NCBI GenBank assembly: GCA_937951625.1
Contig: CALFBP010000057.1
Coordinates: forward strand, 1-61,497
Length of the DNA: 61,497 bases
Direction: 5' to 3'
Source of the DNA: an uncultured Thermoguttaceae bacterium
GTDB lineage: Bacteria > Planctomycetota > Planctomycetia > Pirellulales > Thermoguttaceae
Both the position numbers and the translations under genes were made by a program. Positions 28,533 through 34,434 of this stretch are shown in pieces. The notes below the pieces were generated by a model. The model searched no databases. It was not told where the DNA came from and worked only from the letters and a program-made list of their open reading frames with translations. Positions within the stretch are counted from its first letter, which is position 1; each line of letters begins with the position of its first letter.

Positions 28533-28556
28533 TGTATTATTAGTTATACACTGTAT
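28533..28556 (+). other. palindromic AT-rich element
   Basis: TGTAT (28533-28537), ATACA (28546-28550) and TGTAT (28552-28556) form repeated inverted half-sites; ATACA-C-TGTAT is a perfect 11-nt palindrome. It lies about 200 nt upstream of the sigma-54 promoter and could be a regulator site. Confidence 0.3.
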
Positions 28557-28646
28557 GATTTCACACACGGAGCCGATGACACTTTGACTTCAGCAGTCTT
28601 GAAACCGGCTGCCTGAAGACAGCATCTGGGATATTTGCTGGACCAT

Positions 28647-28731: not shown

Positions 28732-28748
28732 TTGGCACGGATATTGCT
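28732..28748 (+). promoter_or_regulatory. sigma-54 (-24/-12) promoter
   Basis: TTGGCACGGATATTGCT fits the 17-position sigma-54 consensus YTGGCACGRNNNTTGCW at every defined position. It lies 88 nt upstream of the first gene of the operon, which itself encodes an NtrC-type sigma-54 activator. The 359-nt region from 28477 to 28835 holds no other gene; an open frame from 28635 spans the promoter and should be trimmed to the ATG at 28836. Confidence 0.8.
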
Positions 28749-28835: not shown

Positions 28836-30410
28836 ATGGCGGACAATCCAAAACTGTTGGTAGTGGACGACGAGGAAGTCGTGTGCCAAGCCTGTCGGCG
28901 CATCTTTTCACGGCAAGGTTTCGAGGTGGAGACGACCGTCGATGCCCGAGAAGGACTTGCCTGGGCGCAACAAAAGAAATACCGGATCATCTTGTTGGAC
29001 ATCAAAATGCCCAACATGGACGGCATCCAATTCTTGGAGGCCCTTCGCCAAACGGACCCGGAAGTACCCGTGTTGATCATCACCGGGTACCCAAGCATCC
29101 CCAACGCCGCGGCGGCGATGCGTTTGGGCGCCAGCGACTATGTGACCAAACCGTTCACATCGGAGGAAATCACCCGGGCCGTACAGCGGGTATTGGCGAC
29201 TCGCCCGGAGCCGGTGGAGGTCGGCACGGCGGAAGAACCCGCCGCGGCGGATGTTGGTTCCGACGAGCAAGTCCTGTTTTGGCATGAGTCGTGGTTTCGA
29301 CTGGAGGCCGACGGGTCGGCCTGCGTGGGGGTGGTGCTGTCAGGACTTGCCCACGCGAATCGGATCGCCATTCGCTTGCCCAAAATCGGCGAGGTGGTGT
29401 ACCAGGGGCTTCCCATGGCAAGCGTTGCCGCGGAAGACTCGCCGCCTGTTTTCATCCCGGCCCCCATCTCCGGCGTCGTGGTGGCGGTGAACGAAAGTTT
29501 GCCGCAACATACCGACTGGCTGGTCAGCGATCCCTGCGGCGAGGGTTGGTTGGCGTGCGTCTGCTCGACACGTTATGAGGAGGAATTGAAGAACTGCCGA
29601 CCGCGTCAAGTCCTCTTGGTCAATGCCGATCCGCGCTCGGCCGAGCAGCAGGCAAAGAGACTGGCGACTTTGGGTTGCCAAGTCCAAGTGCTTTCGGACC
29701 GCGACGCGGCGTCGGCTGCTTTGAACGACATCGAGGACCGGGTGCTGATTTTGGATGCGGCGTCGTGGGGCGACGATGGTCCGGAGTTGGTGGGCATGAT
29801 CAATAGCCGGGCGCCGGGGCTTCGGGTGGTGGTGGCGGCCCCGAACGCGGCCCTGGAAACCGCCTATCGCAAGAAGAAAATCTTCTATTATGCCGTGGAA
29901 CCGTTCGCCGATAGCGAAATCGCCGATATCTTGGCCGCGGCGTTTCGCATGCAGGAGCCGCCTAAGCCGGAACGCCCCAAAGGCCCCTCGGAACCGATCA
30001 GCATGATTGCGATCACCAATCGCCAGGGGCACAAGGTCCAGCTCATGGCGGCGCCGGGATTGTTGTGGCGGAACGAAGGACTAGGTCAGGAGATCAGCCA
30101 GAAGCTCTTGGCCATGATGTTGCCGGTGGTCATCACGCCGGGCGAGGCCAACCTTACGCCGGCCAACATCTTGAAGACTGCCGCTGCGTGCGATCGAGTG
30201 TTGGTCCTTCTCGCCCGCGACAGTGGTCTGCTCCCCGGCGGACTCGCTCGGCATAGCAAGCCAGAGTTCGCTGTAGAGTCGGGCGACGCGGCCGGTAAGA
30301 TCACAACGCTGGCAGTGCAGCCGGACGCGGTGGGAGGGTTCGCCGGCCTGGATGCCCGTACCTGTTCCGCCCTGGCCGATCACATCGTGCGCGAGATGGC
30401 GTCGTATTGA
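28836..30410 (+). CDS. response regulator with GcvH-like and pseudo-receiver domains
   Basis: The product is 524 aa. Residues 5-120 are a receiver domain: acidic DDEE at 11-14, phospho-acceptor Asp55 (IILLDIKMP), TGYP and the TKPF Lys. Residues about 147-245 resemble the glycine-cleavage H protein (RLEADGSACVGVV, LPKIGEVVYQGLP, GVVVAVNES, DPCGEGWLACV), but the lipoyl-Lys position is not Lys (SVAAEDSPPV). Residues about 257-372 look like a second receiver (VLLVNADP, VLILDAAS, VVVAAP, YAVEPF) with the conserved Lys changed to Glu and Thr to Ala, hence probably not phosphorylated. The C-terminal 135 residues were not recognised. ATG 28836 has GGGAG at 8-nt spacing and lies downstream of the sigma-54 promoter. 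There is no DNA-binding domain, so it probably acts through protein contacts. The next gene, a histidine kinase, starts 1 nt after its stop. Confidence 0.85.
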   Translation: MADNPKLLVVDDEEVVCQACRRIFSRQGFEVETTVDAREGLAWAQQKKYRIILLDIKMPNMDGIQFLEALRQTDPEVPVLIITGYPSIPNAAAAMRLGASDYVTKPFTSEEITRAVQRVLATRPEPVEVGTAEEPAAADVGSDEQVLFWHESWFRLEADGSACVGVVLSGLAHANRIAIRLPKIGEVVYQGLPMASVAAEDSPPVFIPAPISGVVVAVNESLPQHTDWLVSDPCGEGWLACVCSTRYEEELKNCRPRQVLLVNADPRSAEQQAKRLATLGCQVQVLSDRDAASAALNDIEDRVLILDAASWGDDGPELVGMINSRAPGLRVVVAAPNAALETAYRKKKIFYYAVEPFADSEIADILAAAFRMQEPPKPERPKGPSEPISMIAITNRQGHKVQLMAAPGLLWRNEGLGQEISQKLLAMMLPVVITPGEANLTPANILKTAAACDRVLVLLARDSGLLPGGLARHSKPEFAVESGDAAGKITTLAVQPDAVGGFAGLDARTCSALADHIVREMASY

Positions 30411-30411
30411 C

Positions 30412-31701
30412 ATGAAGCTTCCTCCGGAAGGCGCGCGCTGGCTGGTTTCTCTGCGGTTTTTGGCCTGCGCGGCCGTGTTCGTGGGAACCACGCTGGGGTG
30501 GACCATCGGGGTCTTGCCTCGTCCTACGCCCCTTTACGTGGTCGGCGCGGCCATGCTCGGCGTCAATTTGCTGTTTTGGCTCAGCCAGCGCGATTGGGGC
30601 GAGATCCGCCAACGGGTGGAGCGGAACATCCTGATTCAAATCCTGGTGGACCTCGCCTCGCTCACGCTGCTGTTGTCTTTTTCCGATCTCCCCAGGAATC
30701 CTTTCTTGCCGTTTTACGTGTTTCACATGATCATCGCCGGTATGTACTTGCGCGGGCGGACGCCTTACCTGGTGTGCCTGACGGCGGTGGGAATGGTCGG
30801 CGCCGTGATGCTCCTGCAATGGTTGGGAGTGGCTCAGCCCGCCGCGCTCCACTTCCGGTCCGACCCTCCAGGCGGCTGGCAGCCCGACGGGATCTATTTG
30901 TTGATGGTGTTCACGGGCCTGACCAGCACACTGGCGATGGCCACCTACTTCACTACCTCGATCCGCCATTACGTGGACCGGGCCCACGCCGAAATCCGTC
31001 AGAAAGAGAAACTTCTGGGCATCGGGCAATTGGTCGCCGGTATCGCGCATCAGATTGCCAACCCGCTCGACGGACTGCAAAACTGCCTTCAACGCATCGG
31101 CGAACGGCTCAAGGACGACGCCCAATTGAAGGACTACGTGCAGATGATGGTCGATGCCTTGAACCGCATCGAACGGACAGCCAAGCGAGTCCAATCGTTT
31201 GCCCGACCCCACGGCCTCACCGTCGTGCCCACGGACGTCAACGCGGTCGTGGAAGCCACCTTGCAATTCCTATCTATCCCTCAACAGAAGGGGATCGAGA
31301 TTCGCACCGAACTGGGCGAGGTTCCCTTGGTCAATGGCGATTCGTATACTCTCCAAGAAGTCTTGTTCAATCTGTGCATGAACGCCTTTGCCGCCATGCC
31401 CGAGGGGGGAACCCTGACGCTGCGCACGCGCACCTTGAGCACCCGTGACGAGGAATCCACGGAAGGCGTTGTCATCGAGGTGATCGATACGGGAGTAGGG
31501 ATTCCTCGGGTTCATCTGGAGAAGGTGTTTGAGCCGTTTTTCACCACGCGTGCGGAAAGCGGGGGAACGGGCTTGGGGCTGGGGTTGTGCCGGATGTTGG
31601 TCAGCGAGATGGGGGGACGCATGGAGGTGCAAAGCGTGGTGGGGCGAGGGACAGTGTTTCGAGTCATCCTCGAACCTGCCAAAGGCGTCTCGAGTCGCTA
31701 A
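30412..31701 (+). CDS. membrane sensor histidine kinase
   Basis: The product is 429 aa. Six hydrophobic segments (about residues 10-30, 37-56, 70-88, 95-112, 115-138 and 161-184) form an integral sensor with almost no periplasmic domain, suggesting sensing within the membrane. The HisKA box GIAHQIANPLDG places the phospho-His at 213. HATPase motifs follow: N box NLCMNAFAAMPEGG, G1 DTGVGIP, F box FEPFFTT and G2 GGTGLGLGL. A kinase of NtrB-like catalytic type fits the downstream NtrC-type regulator. The ATG lies 1 nt after the preceding stop and 7 nt separate its stop from the next ATG, so the three genes form one transcript. Two possible phosphorylation targets, the flanking REC proteins, are encoded alongside. 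Confidence 0.9.
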   Translation: MKLPPEGARWLVSLRFLACAAVFVGTTLGWTIGVLPRPTPLYVVGAAMLGVNLLFWLSQRDWGEIRQRVERNILIQILVDLASLTLLLSFSDLPRNPFLPFYVFHMIIAGMYLRGRTPYLVCLTAVGMVGAVMLLQWLGVAQPAALHFRSDPPGGWQPDGIYLLMVFTGLTSTLAMATYFTTSIRHYVDRAHAEIRQKEKLLGIGQLVAGIAHQIANPLDGLQNCLQRIGERLKDDAQLKDYVQMMVDALNRIERTAKRVQSFARPHGLTVVPTDVNAVVEATLQFLSIPQQKGIEIRTELGEVPLVNGDSYTLQEVLFNLCMNAFAAMPEGGTLTLRTRTLSTRDEESTEGVVIEVIDTGVGIPRVHLEKVFEPFFTTRAESGGTGLGLGLCRMLVSEMGGRMEVQSVVGRGTVFRVILEPAKGVSSR

Positions 31702-31708
31702 GCTAACC

Positions 31709-33043
31709 ATGAGAATTCTGGTCGCCGACGACGAGAAGATGAAGCGCGTCACCCTGGCCCAGGACTTGGCCGATCAGGGCCATGAGGTCGTCACGGCCGC
31801 AGATGGATTGGAGGCATTGGAACGCCTCAAGGCTGAGCGGTTCGACGTGGTGATCACGGACTTGAAGATGCCCAAGCTCGACGGCATCGAACTGCTCAAA
31901 CAGATAAAACGTGACCCCACTGTCGACACCGAGGTGATCATCATGACCGCCTACGGGAGCATTCCCTTGGCCGTGGAGGCAGGAAAACTCGGCGCCTATG
32001 ACTTCGTGACCAAGCCCTTCCGCAACGAAGACATCTTTCCGCTTCTGGCCCAGATCCAGGCCGCACGCCGTCCCTGTCCGCCAGGCCGCAGGGCCACGCT
32101 CGAGTCGGCCAGCGAAAATATCGATCAGACGGTGATTGGCCAATCGGCCGCCATGCAACGGGTGCGGCGGATGATCGAGATTTGCGTGCGGTCCGACGCC
32201 AACGTGTTGCTTTACGGCGAGACGGGGACCGGCAAGGACCTGATCGCCGCCGCCATCCATCGCAACTCGCCCCGCCGCGCGTGTCCTTTCGTCAAGGTCG
32301 GATGCACCCTCTTTCCCAGCCAACTCATCGAAAGCGAGCTGTATGGCCACGAACGCGGGTCGTTCACCGGCGCCGACCAACGGCGGCCCGGCCGGTTCGA
32401 GCTGGCCGAAGGCGGGACGCTCTATCTGGACGACGTGGACGATATTCCCATGGAACATCAGGCCAAACTGCTCCGCGCCATCGAAGAAAAGATTTTCGAG
32501 CGTGTCGGGGGCACGACCCCCATCCGCGCCAATGTGCGGATTGTGGCCTCGACCAAGAAGAACCTGCTGGAGAAGGTGGCCTGCGGCACGTTTCGCCAGG
32601 ACCTCTATTACCGGCTGGACGTGCTCCGCGTGAACATTCCCCCGCTCCGCGAACGGCGCGAAGACATTCCGCTGTTGGCCCAACACCTTTTGAGGCGCAT
32701 CGCGCCCGACCAGCCGGTCTCCTTGGAAGCCTCGGCCGTGGAGGTCCTTCAGCGACACGATTGGCCGGGCAACGTCCGCGAATTGTTTCACGTGCTGCAA
32801 CGGGCCTATCTCGTCGGGTCGGGCGTGATCAGCGGCGACCTGTTATTGGCCGAAATCGACGGCCTCTCCCAGCATCTATCTCCGGCCCCCTGTTCGTTCC
32901 AAGCCACGATCCAAAAGACCGAACGCGAGTTATTGGAAAGCGCCCTCCAGGCCGCGGGAGGCAACAAAAATGCCGCGGCCGCCGCCTTGGGCATGAAACC
33001 TTCCACCTTCCGCGACAAACTGGCCAAGTACGGACTGCTATGA
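31709..33043 (+). CDS. sigma-54-dependent NtrC-family response regulator
   Basis: The product is 444 aa. The receiver domain (residues 1-120) has DDE at 7-9, Asp51 (VVITDLKMPKLDG) and the TKPF Lys. The AAA+ domain (about 145-380) has Walker A GETGTGKD (near 170), Walker B LYLDDVDD and the sigma-54 contact loop GSFTGA (near 216), a Ser-for-Ala variant of the usual GAFTGA. A Fis-type helix-turn-helix closes the protein (NKNAAAAALGMKPSTFRDKL). It should bind enhancer DNA and drive sigma-54 promoters; the promoter at 28732-28748 upstream of its own operon is the obvious target. The frame is open from 31529, but ATG 31709 begins the receiver. Its stop overlaps the sulfatase ATG. Confidence 0.93.
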   Translation: MRILVADDEKMKRVTLAQDLADQGHEVVTAADGLEALERLKAERFDVVITDLKMPKLDGIELLKQIKRDPTVDTEVIIMTAYGSIPLAVEAGKLGAYDFVTKPFRNEDIFPLLAQIQAARRPCPPGRRATLESASENIDQTVIGQSAAMQRVRRMIEICVRSDANVLLYGETGTGKDLIAAAIHRNSPRRACPFVKVGCTLFPSQLIESELYGHERGSFTGADQRRPGRFELAEGGTLYLDDVDDIPMEHQAKLLRAIEEKIFERVGGTTPIRANVRIVASTKKNLLEKVACGTFRQDLYYRLDVLRVNIPPLRERREDIPLLAQHLLRRIAPDQPVSLEASAVEVLQRHDWPGNVRELFHVLQRAYLVGSGVISGDLLLAEIDGLSQHLSPAPCSFQATIQKTERELLESALQAAGGNKNAAAAALGMKPSTFRDKLAKYGLL

Positions 33044-34434
33044 ACTGCCTCGTCATGCTTTTGGCGTCAGTTGGAACTATCACCTCGCCCGGTACGGCCG
33101 CGGATCGGCCCAACATCCTCGTCCTGCTCACCGACGATCACCGCTGGGACGCCCTGGGCTGCGCCGGCAACCCCATCGTCCGCACGCCGGAGATGGATCG
33201 CCTTGCGGCCGAGGGAACACGGTTCGTCAACGCCTTCGCCACCAGCTCGATCTGCGCCGCCAGCCGGGCCTCGATCTTCCTCGGCCAGTACGAACGGGCC
33301 CACCGCTGCAACTTCCACACCGACTGCTTGCGGCGATCGCAACTGGAACACAGCTACCCGATGCTGCTGCGCAAGGCGGGATATTTCACCGGCTTCATCG
33401 GCAAGTACGGCGTCGGCGATGTGCCCCGGGGCAGGCCGCCGCGCGACATCGAGGGCAGCGAGGTTTTCGACCGCTGGTACGGGTTCTACGGCCAAGGCGT
33501 CTATTTTCCCAAGGAACATCCCGGCAAGCACCTCAACCAGATCATGGTCGAGCAGGCCCGCGATTTTCTCGCCGCCGCCCCGCCGGGAAAGCCTTGGTGC
33601 TTGTCGATCAGCTTCAAGGCCCCGCACTCCGGCGAGGGCTACGTTGGCTACCACGCGGAAAAGGACCTAAAATCGCTTTACGCCGAGGTCCTCGTTCCCG
33701 AGCCGCCCACCATGCGTTCGGAGTTTTTCCACGCCCTGCCAGAGTTCCTCCGCAAGTGCAATGCCCGCACCAGCTATTGGGAGCTTCGCTTCAGCACGCC
33801 GGAGAAATACCAGGCGACGATGAAGGACTATTATCGCCTGATCACGGGGGCGGACCGGGCCATCGGCCAGATCCGTCTACACCTGGCCGCCCGCGGCTTC
33901 GCCGATAACACCGTGATCGTCTTCCTAGGCGACAACGGGGACATGATGGGCGACTATCAGCTTGGCGGGAAGGAATTGCTCTACGACGCCTCGATCCGCA
34001 TTCCGCTTCTTGTCTTCGACCCTCGCGCGCCCAAGTCGGCTCGCGGCCAGAAGCGGACCGAGCTGGCGTTGAACCTCGACGTGGCCGCCACAGTGTTGGA
34101 CGCGGCGGGAATCGCGCGGCCCGCGGCGATGCAGGGCCGAAGCCTCTTGCCGTTGGTGCGGGGCGAGCACGTCGCGTGGCGCAAGGATTTCTTTTGCGAA
34201 AACCATTTCGTCCTGCCTGAACAATACTATCCCGTCATCGAGGGCGTCCGCAGCGAATGCTGGAAGTACGTCCGCTACCCGGAAATGACGCCCGTCCACG
34301 AGCAGTTGTTCGACTTGGCCAATGACCCCTTGGAAGTGAATGACCTGGCCCGAAATCCGCAATATCAAGAGGTGCTCTCGTCGCTGCGCCAACGTTGCGC
34401 GGAGCTTCGACGGGAGGCGGGTCACGGATCGTAG
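33040..34434 (+). CDS. exported type I sulfatase
   Basis: The product is 464 aa with a signal peptide ([21 protein letters not shown]). It is an arylsulfatase-type enzyme that removes sulfate esters, probably from polysaccharides in the periplasm. The N-terminal metal motif is [13 protein letters not shown] (Asp32, Asp33). The formylglycine signature is Cys72-Ala-Ala-Ser-Arg76, a C-x-A-x-R variant of C-x-P-x-R, so activation by a formylglycine-generating enzyme is expected; that enzyme is not in the window. Later motifs [16 protein letters not shown] and [17 protein letters not shown] are typical. The ATG overlaps the NtrC-type stop by 4 nt, tying expression to the signalling operon. Its stop overlaps the convergent metH stop by 13 nt. 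Exact substrate unknown. Confidence 0.92.

Follow-up and report, generated by a model that had tools for sequence, protein, structure and literature searches.

The protein encoded in the middle of the window (the whole stretch of DNA that was analysed, 61,497 nucleotides), named RGRX, is a response regulator whose output is unusual and derived from enzymes; many of its relatives are tied to operons of heterodisulfide reductase (Hdr). Judged by its sequence, RGRX combines a receiver domain (REC) carrying a full phosphorylation site and a CxxC motif with a GcvH-like domain and two degenerate domains; a sigma-54 site is present in most relatives examined, and linkage to hdr genes is recurrent. 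This genomic company suggests that RGRX helps to control Hdr, an energy-saving enzyme that splits electrons, often together with hydrogenase, rather than binding DNA itself. The family's link to Hdr by genomics is strong, and from it a contact of the protein with Hdr is proposed. RGRX is accordingly read here, at a little under even chances, as a non-DNA-binding response regulator that would serve Hdr complexes as a phospho/redox-switched adaptor, alongside control of transcription by NtrC-type proteins.

Table 1. Features of the RGRX operon and its upstream region (positions in the window).
Feature	Position	Strand	Basis
Tandem enhancer-like repeats TGTATTATTAGTTATACA / TGTATGATTTCACACA, TGTATG-N3..9-CATACA	28533..28567	+	Pattern match, 2 and 1 mismatches
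Sigma-54 (-24/-12) promoter TGGCACGGATATTGCT	28733..28748	+	11/11 against the consensus
RGRX, REC / GcvH-like / pseudo-REC / HycI-like protein, 524 aa	28836..30410	+	ORF, Pfam, profiles, alignment
Intact receiver domain, residues 4-122, CxxC C17/C20	28845..29201	+	PF00072, E 1.6e-36
GcvH-like domain, residues 147-250, without lipoyl Lys, Cys234/241/243	29274..29585	+	PF01597, PDB GcvH profile, hairpin analysis
Degenerate receiver (pseudo-REC), residues 258-372	29607..29951	+	hhalign to REC, P 2.5e-7
C-terminal domain, residues 384-524, degenerate HycI/M52-like	29985..30407	+	AlphaFold model, Foldseek, hhalign
Membrane sensor histidine kinase	30412..31701	+	HisKA, HATPase_c (Pfam)
NtrC-type sigma-54 activator, REC-AAA-Fis	31709..33043	+	PF00072, PF00158, PF02954

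Operon and domain architecture of RGRX

The coding part of the RGRX gene (28836-30407) opens with an ATG just behind GGGAGAA and closes at a TGA stop codon (30408-30410), one base before the kinase ATG. Gene order and the Pfam domains of the two following genes (Table 1) agree with an earlier note on this DNA, which had made RGRX the lead gene of a kinase/NtrC-type operon. Beside RGRX in relatives lie three orthologues of the window kinase (65-67% identity), and orthologues of the window NtrC-type protein (72-76%) adjoin it in six other genomes. The window operon is followed on the same strand by a sulfatase gene (33040-34434; PF00884, E 9e-44) in ATGA overlap with the NtrC-type stop codon; since its start lies inside that stop codon, the sulfatase may be translationally coupled to the RGRX operon. 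The gene after the matching operon of genome G456 differs from the window's sulfatase. The membrane part of the window kinase contains a D(L/F)P(R/Q)NPF segment that is kept in all four orthologues, the window's included. It is reminiscent of the NPF motif by which RegB binds quinone, with the GG of the RegB motif missing.

The PF00072 match of RGRX covers residues 8-116 (E 1.6e-36). Residue counts refer to 16 aligned members, 13 of which have a complete, intact REC, the decayed paralogue on contig C11 of the same genome being excluded. The acidic pair, phospho-Asp, Thr/Ser and Lys of a response regulator are all present in RGRX: D11, D12, D55 and T83 are kept in 13/13 members with a complete, intact REC, and K105 in the 14 members that have this column (again without the C11 paralogue). 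The same 13 members all share C17 and C20, which form a CxxC within helix 1; a handful of other receivers of the genome show no such motif.

For the GcvH-like domain, PF01597 matches residues 150-250 (E 3.2e-11) with 43.6 bits, where the curated cut-off is 22.2. GcvH structures were retrieved from the PDB at E 4e-12 by a profile built from 16 members without their REC, and hhalign of this stretch with five true GcvH proteins of the order gave P 8e-15. The assignment as a GcvH barrel rests on these profiles because the full-length AlphaFold model (three sequences) failed, with a pLDDT of 49 overall and of 23-36 for residues 131-260. The lipoyl Lys lies in an ESVKA-type hairpin in 6/6 true GcvH proteins; this context is lost in 16/16 RGRX members, and in the window copy Ser occupies the gap-free lipoyl position and the hairpin contains no Lys. 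The earlier statement that the lipoyl lysine is lacking thus stands for the window protein but not for the whole family, given that seven of the 16 members have Lys at the gap-free position (6/15 by script, and L010 by eye). REC-GcvH proteins of other lineages, described below, have no Lys there (0/5 by script, 0/7 with two added by eye). Several cysteines are conserved in this region: Cys234 in 14 of the 16 members, Cys241 in 12, Cys243 in 11 and Cys254 in 12.

With hhalign, the second receiver-like stretch aligned to the proteins' own REC (P 2.5e-7), and the 16-row REC-less profile matched an NtrC receiver in the PDB at E 5e-6. Asp307 and Cys281 are kept in 16/16 members; the Lys is lost in all 16 and replaced by Glu in 12, in line with the Lys-to-Glu exchange of the earlier note. 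The domain order given there (REC, GcvH-like, pseudo-REC) was recovered through PF00072, PF01597 and the PDB and hhalign profile matches. Its view that RGRX lacks a DNA-binding output was upheld by Pfam, which at E up to 1 found no such domain in the protein.

The C-terminal domain had been called unrecognised. This remains true of Pfam, which at E up to 1 assigned no family to residues 384-524 of the window copy, but the domain resembles a degenerate hydrogenase maturation peptidase in Foldseek and hhalign comparisons. Across the members, Pfam returned three families for this domain with one member each (E 0.016-0.06), PF01750 matched none of 16 members at E up to 1, and the C-terminal profile, run against PDB sequences, brought up two chance-level matches only (E 0.17 and 0.18). 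The AlphaFold model of the domain (three sequences; pLDDT 75, pTM 0.73) was compared with the PDB using Foldseek, which ranked first 5zby (E 0.011, probability 0.97), the structure of HycI, a maturation peptidase of [NiFe]-hydrogenase, and second another hydrogenase maturation peptidase (E 0.13). VIA-align gave Z scores of 6.3-6.4 for HycI/HybD, up to 6.8 for amidases and 5.7 for peptidyl-tRNA hydrolases, values that by the program's own note may mean only a common arrangement; because these groups rank so close, the family cannot be named from the fold by itself.

Sixteen true HycI proteins of the order, including that of the same genome, were combined into a profile, which hhalign aligned with the C-terminal domain at P 2.1e-4 (score 31.2, probability 46%), while the controls scored at most 17.0 (60 column shuffles), 16.3 (reversed profile) and at most 17.7 (nine unrelated families). 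In this register NEGLG falls on the DD-x-x-G loop, and DRVLVL and LPGGL fall on DRxIVxDA and PGT. The metal ligands of HybD (M52) are Glu, Asp and His. The column of the Glu ligand holds Glu in 11/16 members, the aligned Asp column holds Asp in none of the 16, and in the window protein A-A-G stands opposite the His region; the three-ligand set of HybD is not kept. The domain is probably a degenerate HycI-like domain.

Association of the family with Hdr genes

Among 119 genomes of the family to which the window belongs, 23 carry RGRX, at 24 loci, and plasmid records contained no relative of residues 140-524 at E 1e-5. Among 392 genomes of the phylum (best four candidates of each), at least two own-family genomes have full-length relatives and at least four others the GcvH part alone; the C-terminal domain was seen in one own-family genome, with a weak partial match in G347.

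Hdr genes lie 3' of RGRX on the same strand at 11 of the 24 loci. They follow straight after it in eight (C11 of the window's own genome, G028, G010, G005, G036, G455, G006 and G451), with a 184-residue frame between the two in G010. In G453, G457 and G018 a kinase and/or NtrC-type gene lies between RGRX and the Hdr genes. A contig end cuts off three loci (G464, G004 and G003) within 700 bp. At 10 of the 21 untruncated loci (window, G458, G033, G031, G456, G016, G454, G022, G015 and G007) no Hdr gene was found in a stretch of about 7-12 kb, and the 61-kb window had no Hdr-type match anywhere. Two layouts recur, [HK-]NtrC-RGRX-hdrC-hdrB-hdrA and HK-NtrC-RGRX-[HK-]NtrC-hdrD-etfB-(etfA)-membrane FeS-hdrA. 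The second includes orthologues of the window NtrC-type protein and, in G453, also of the window kinase. A kinase and/or NtrC-type gene is near RGRX at 19/24 loci, with or without hdr, and in 10 of the 11 Hdr-linked loci the surrounding stretch had no [NiFe]-hydrogenase match.

In the C11 operon and in G018 and G457, NCBIfam identified HdrA2 (E 4e-244 and 2e-241), HdrB (E 3e-56), HdrC (E 2e-22), VhuA (E 7e-113), VhuG (E 7e-67) and EtfB (E 1e-20); because all these matches are below the curated equivalog cut-offs, the Hdr, Vhu and Etf names denote a family and not an exact function. A close type of HdrB (at least 430 bits) occurs in 21/23 genomes with RGRX versus 10/96 without it (Fisher p 8e-14, uncorrected for ancestry), a count that leaves out a truncated, 78%-identical piece in G465.

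Among the kinases of these loci, two near NtrC-RGRX (L050 14112-15998 and L055 4793-6892) contain an iron-only-hydrogenase-like domain (PF02906), which suggests H2 or redox sensing. The sensor of an Hdr-linked kinase (L049 4449-6434) is a phosphonate-type periplasmic binding domain (PF12974).

The C11 paralogue is 50% identical to RGRX over residues 200-522 and is followed by hdrC, hdrB, hdrA and mvhG-like and mvhA-like genes. Its REC has decayed into two frames with stops (L041 10217-10767) and reads G, P and G at the columns of D55, T83 and K105. This remnant sits 5' of the open frame, between a perfect repeat with a sigma-54-like site and the intact GcvH-like/pseudo-REC/HycI-like part. With stops in the REC and its phosphorylation-site residues lost, the body has therefore been kept without its receiver. 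Elsewhere in the same genome are a true GcvH (C22), a true HycI (C26), a second HdrA with mvhG/mvhA-like genes (C59) and, on C70, an hdrD 81% identical to the Etf-linked kind, with etfB-like and etfA-like frames that run to the contig end.

Outside the family, a match to both domains of REC-GcvH was found in at least six of the 392 genomes (best six candidates of each), one of them being an RGRX (G022), and G180 has a partial match (positions 3-224). In G098 the gene order is HK, NtrC, REC-GcvH, a second REC-GcvH with an HdrC fusion (TIGR03290, E 5.8e-35; 45% identical to the HdrC of the window's genome), a protein with an HdrA part, an MvhD/VhuD-like gene and a molybdopterin oxidoreductase. 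The HdrA-part protein (L073 2200-6516; 1438 residues), beside the MvhD/VhuD-like gene, also carries pyridine-nucleotide/NAD(P)H-oxidoreductase-type domains. No Hdr match was found near five of the six REC-GcvH loci outside the family (G098:C443, G182, G226, G197 and G280), two of these on contigs under 6 kb. A kinase gene stands immediately before the REC-GcvH gene in G182, G226, G197 and G280, where the neighbourhood of REC-GcvH gave no NtrC-type match. Directly 3' of one REC-GcvH gene lies a REC fused to a pyridine-nucleotide-disulfide oxidoreductase (L074 2558-4375; PF00072, PF07992), a further case of a receiver joined to a redox enzyme. From these loci, the GcvH-like domain seems to be a response-regulator output in its own right, and, with no Hdr match near five of them, the tie to Hdr does not hold throughout. 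The open-access literature gave no description of REC-GcvH proteins, subscription journals being mostly outside the search.

Sigma-54 sites and upstream repeats

The -24/-12 site TGGCACGGATATTGCT lies 103 bases 5' of the RGRX ATG and is the only site scoring at least 10/11 on either strand of the window. By sequence alone, the lead gene thus has the promoter of a sigma-54-controlled operon. The 4.59-Mb genome holds 12 perfect sites, this one included, against 10 in a backwards control, so most of the perfect sites could be due to chance. Another lies just before hdrD on C70 (22065-22080), and others precede glutamine-synthetase-like and GroEL-like genes (named by eye). The upstream regions of 21 of the 24 loci were compared, L047, L048 and L051 being dropped as their contigs begin inside the gene. 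Within 450 bp, a site of at least 9/11 is present in 18/21 regions and of at least 10/11 in 16/21, where about 0.017 sites of 10/11 are expected by chance per region; no site of at least 9/11 was found within this distance in L044, L045 and L054.

The repeat pattern of Table 1, with up to two mismatches, occurs in 13/21 upstream regions versus 16/751 background windows, a contrast that is inflated and partly circular because the pattern was chosen after nine of these 21 regions had been read. The C11 operon has a perfect copy (L041 10660-10678). The hdrD promoters of C70 in the same genome, L102 and L048 carry a different, CGGAAWTCCG-like repeat (by eye). The simplest reading is of two NtrC-type proteins with two targets, possibly in a cascade, in which the pairing of protein and repeat would be as follows. 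The window NtrC-type protein probably drives the C70 hdrD-etf operon, which has its own perfect sigma-54 site, and the second NtrC-type protein, that of C11, is probably the one that binds the repeats 5' of RGRX; with the C11 protein acting on RGRX and the window protein on C70, the two systems may form a cascade.

Proposed function and comparison with known systems

The module as a whole would provide two-component and sigma-54 control of Hdr electron-transfer complexes, some of them with [NiFe]-hydrogenase or Etf subunits. The neighbouring kinase is predicted to phosphorylate Asp55 of RGRX. The phosphate, perhaps with the redox state of the thiols, may then alter the docking of the GcvH-like/pseudo-REC/HycI-like body on an Hdr complex, which would tune the activity or assembly of the complex, while NtrC-type partners would set the transcription of the same hdr operons. 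This adaptor reading is drawn from the hdr genes 3' of RGRX at 11/24 loci, the co-occurrence with HdrB, the C11 body kept without a REC, the fusion to HdrC, the HycI resemblance and the promoters. It is weakened by the lack of Hdr matches in the window, at 10/21 untruncated loci and at 5/6 outside REC-GcvH loci, and also by the modest HycI resemblance, the 12 versus 10 perfect sigma-54 sites and the partly circular repeat count. The earlier note had offered docking or metabolite sensing as the role of RGRX; docking is the likeliest kind of function, and metabolite sensing lacks direct support.

A bolder form of the adaptor reading, which is rather doubtful, is that the two-component system acts post-translationally on flavin-based electron bifurcation, with REC phosphate and a CxxC/GcvH-cysteine redox state switching a pseudo-LbpA/pseudo-HycI adaptor on or off HdrABC-Mvh or Hdr-Etf. 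If so, the cell would gate low-potential electron flow directly, and sigma-54 transcription of the same enzyme would be the slow arm.

It is somewhat unlikely, if well short of far-fetched, that RGRX is instead a phosphate sink or connector, whose REC competes with the NtrC-type REC and whose body binds to the kinase or to the NtrC-type protein instead of Hdr, the Hdr link being only co-regulation. The kinase and/or NtrC-type gene near RGRX at 19/24 loci, whether hdr is there or not, fits such a role, as do the four other-lineage REC-GcvH genes directly after a kinase with no NtrC-type match found beside them and the absence of a known output domain from RGRX. However, the C11 paralogue kept its body after losing its REC, a REC-GcvH-HdrC fusion exists, and about 400 conserved residues exceed what a sink needs. 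An improbable alternative is that RGRX is an assembly or maturation chaperone of an Hdr-hydrogenase, in which the apo-enzyme is bound by the HycI-like and GcvH-like parts and the moment of its release is set by phosphorylation. The likeness of the C-terminal domain to a [NiFe]-hydrogenase maturation peptidase and the mvhG/mvhA-like genes in the C11 operon and the second Hdr cluster speak for it, but the genome has a separate true HycI on C26, the metal ligands of the HycI-like domain are incomplete, and 10/11 Hdr-linked loci have no [NiFe]-hydrogenase match in the surrounding stretch. That some members are lipoylated and extend a lipoyl arm to Hdr, as would the LbpA proteins of sulfur oxidisers, which are tied to Hdr-like complexes (PMC6067878), with the arm lost in the window copy, is very improbable: Lys stands at the lipoyl position in 7/16 members, but none of the 16 retains the ESVKA context, the window copy carries Ser, and other-lineage REC-GcvH proteins have no Lys there (0/5 by script, 0/7 with those by eye).

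Much anaerobic metabolism draws its low-potential electrons from Hdr complexes that include hydrogenase or Etf. If the adaptor reading of RGRX is right, a response regulator with a GcvH-like and hydrogenase-peptidase-like output, recurrently before hdr, would be a new phospho-relay route to a metabolic enzyme. The sigma-54 sites, the two types of inverted repeat and the pair of NtrC-type proteins also yield testable predictions. In the open-access literature no bacterial Hdr operon was found described as being under two-component control. Archaeal HdrR is reportedly a published transcription regulator of hdrBCA. For Desulfobacterium autotrophicum, a figure legend of the genome paper includes a histidine kinase, a response regulator and a regulator of the CheY-like kind among the genes drawn around hdr loci, and does not name their domains (PMC2702500).

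Several known systems resemble RGRX in part. With NtrC-type two-component/sigma-54 systems, the operon shares a kinase, a REC-AAA-Fis activator, a -24/-12 site and distal inverted repeats, but here a second, non-DNA-binding REC protein heads the operon. PleD-type regulators combine an active and a degenerate REC in one chain with GGDEF; RGRX likewise has both receivers, but no GGDEF, a GcvH-like domain between them and a HycI-like tail. The tail is like HycI/HybD (PF01750, M52) in its predicted fold, its motif order NEGLG, DRVLVL, LPGGL and its profile match (P 2e-4), and differs in having Glu in 11/16 members at the Glu column, the Asp and His positions lost, no match to the Pfam model and a fusion to other domains. 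The glycine cleavage H-protein is matched by profile over 100 residues, with PDB relatives at E 4e-12, but window RGRX has neither the lipoyl Lys nor ESVKA, carries extra cysteines and is fused to a REC, and the true GcvH of the genome is separate.

A further published parallel is LbpA of the sHdr sulfur-oxidation system, a GcvH-like protein that has a strictly conserved lipoyl Lys, is genetically tied to Hdr-type genes and has conserved cysteines absent from GcvH (PMC6067878). RGRX is also GcvH-like and equipped with extra conserved cysteines, but it has a REC and, in the window copy, no Lys; its family lies by hdr genes at 11/24 loci, the window locus not among them. A strictly conserved lipoyl Lys is not found in its family, and its partners would be HdrABC or HdrD-Etf genes under two-component/sigma-54 control in place of sHdr. 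LbpA proteins thereby offer a published example of a GcvH-like protein that partners an Hdr-like enzyme (PMC6067878).
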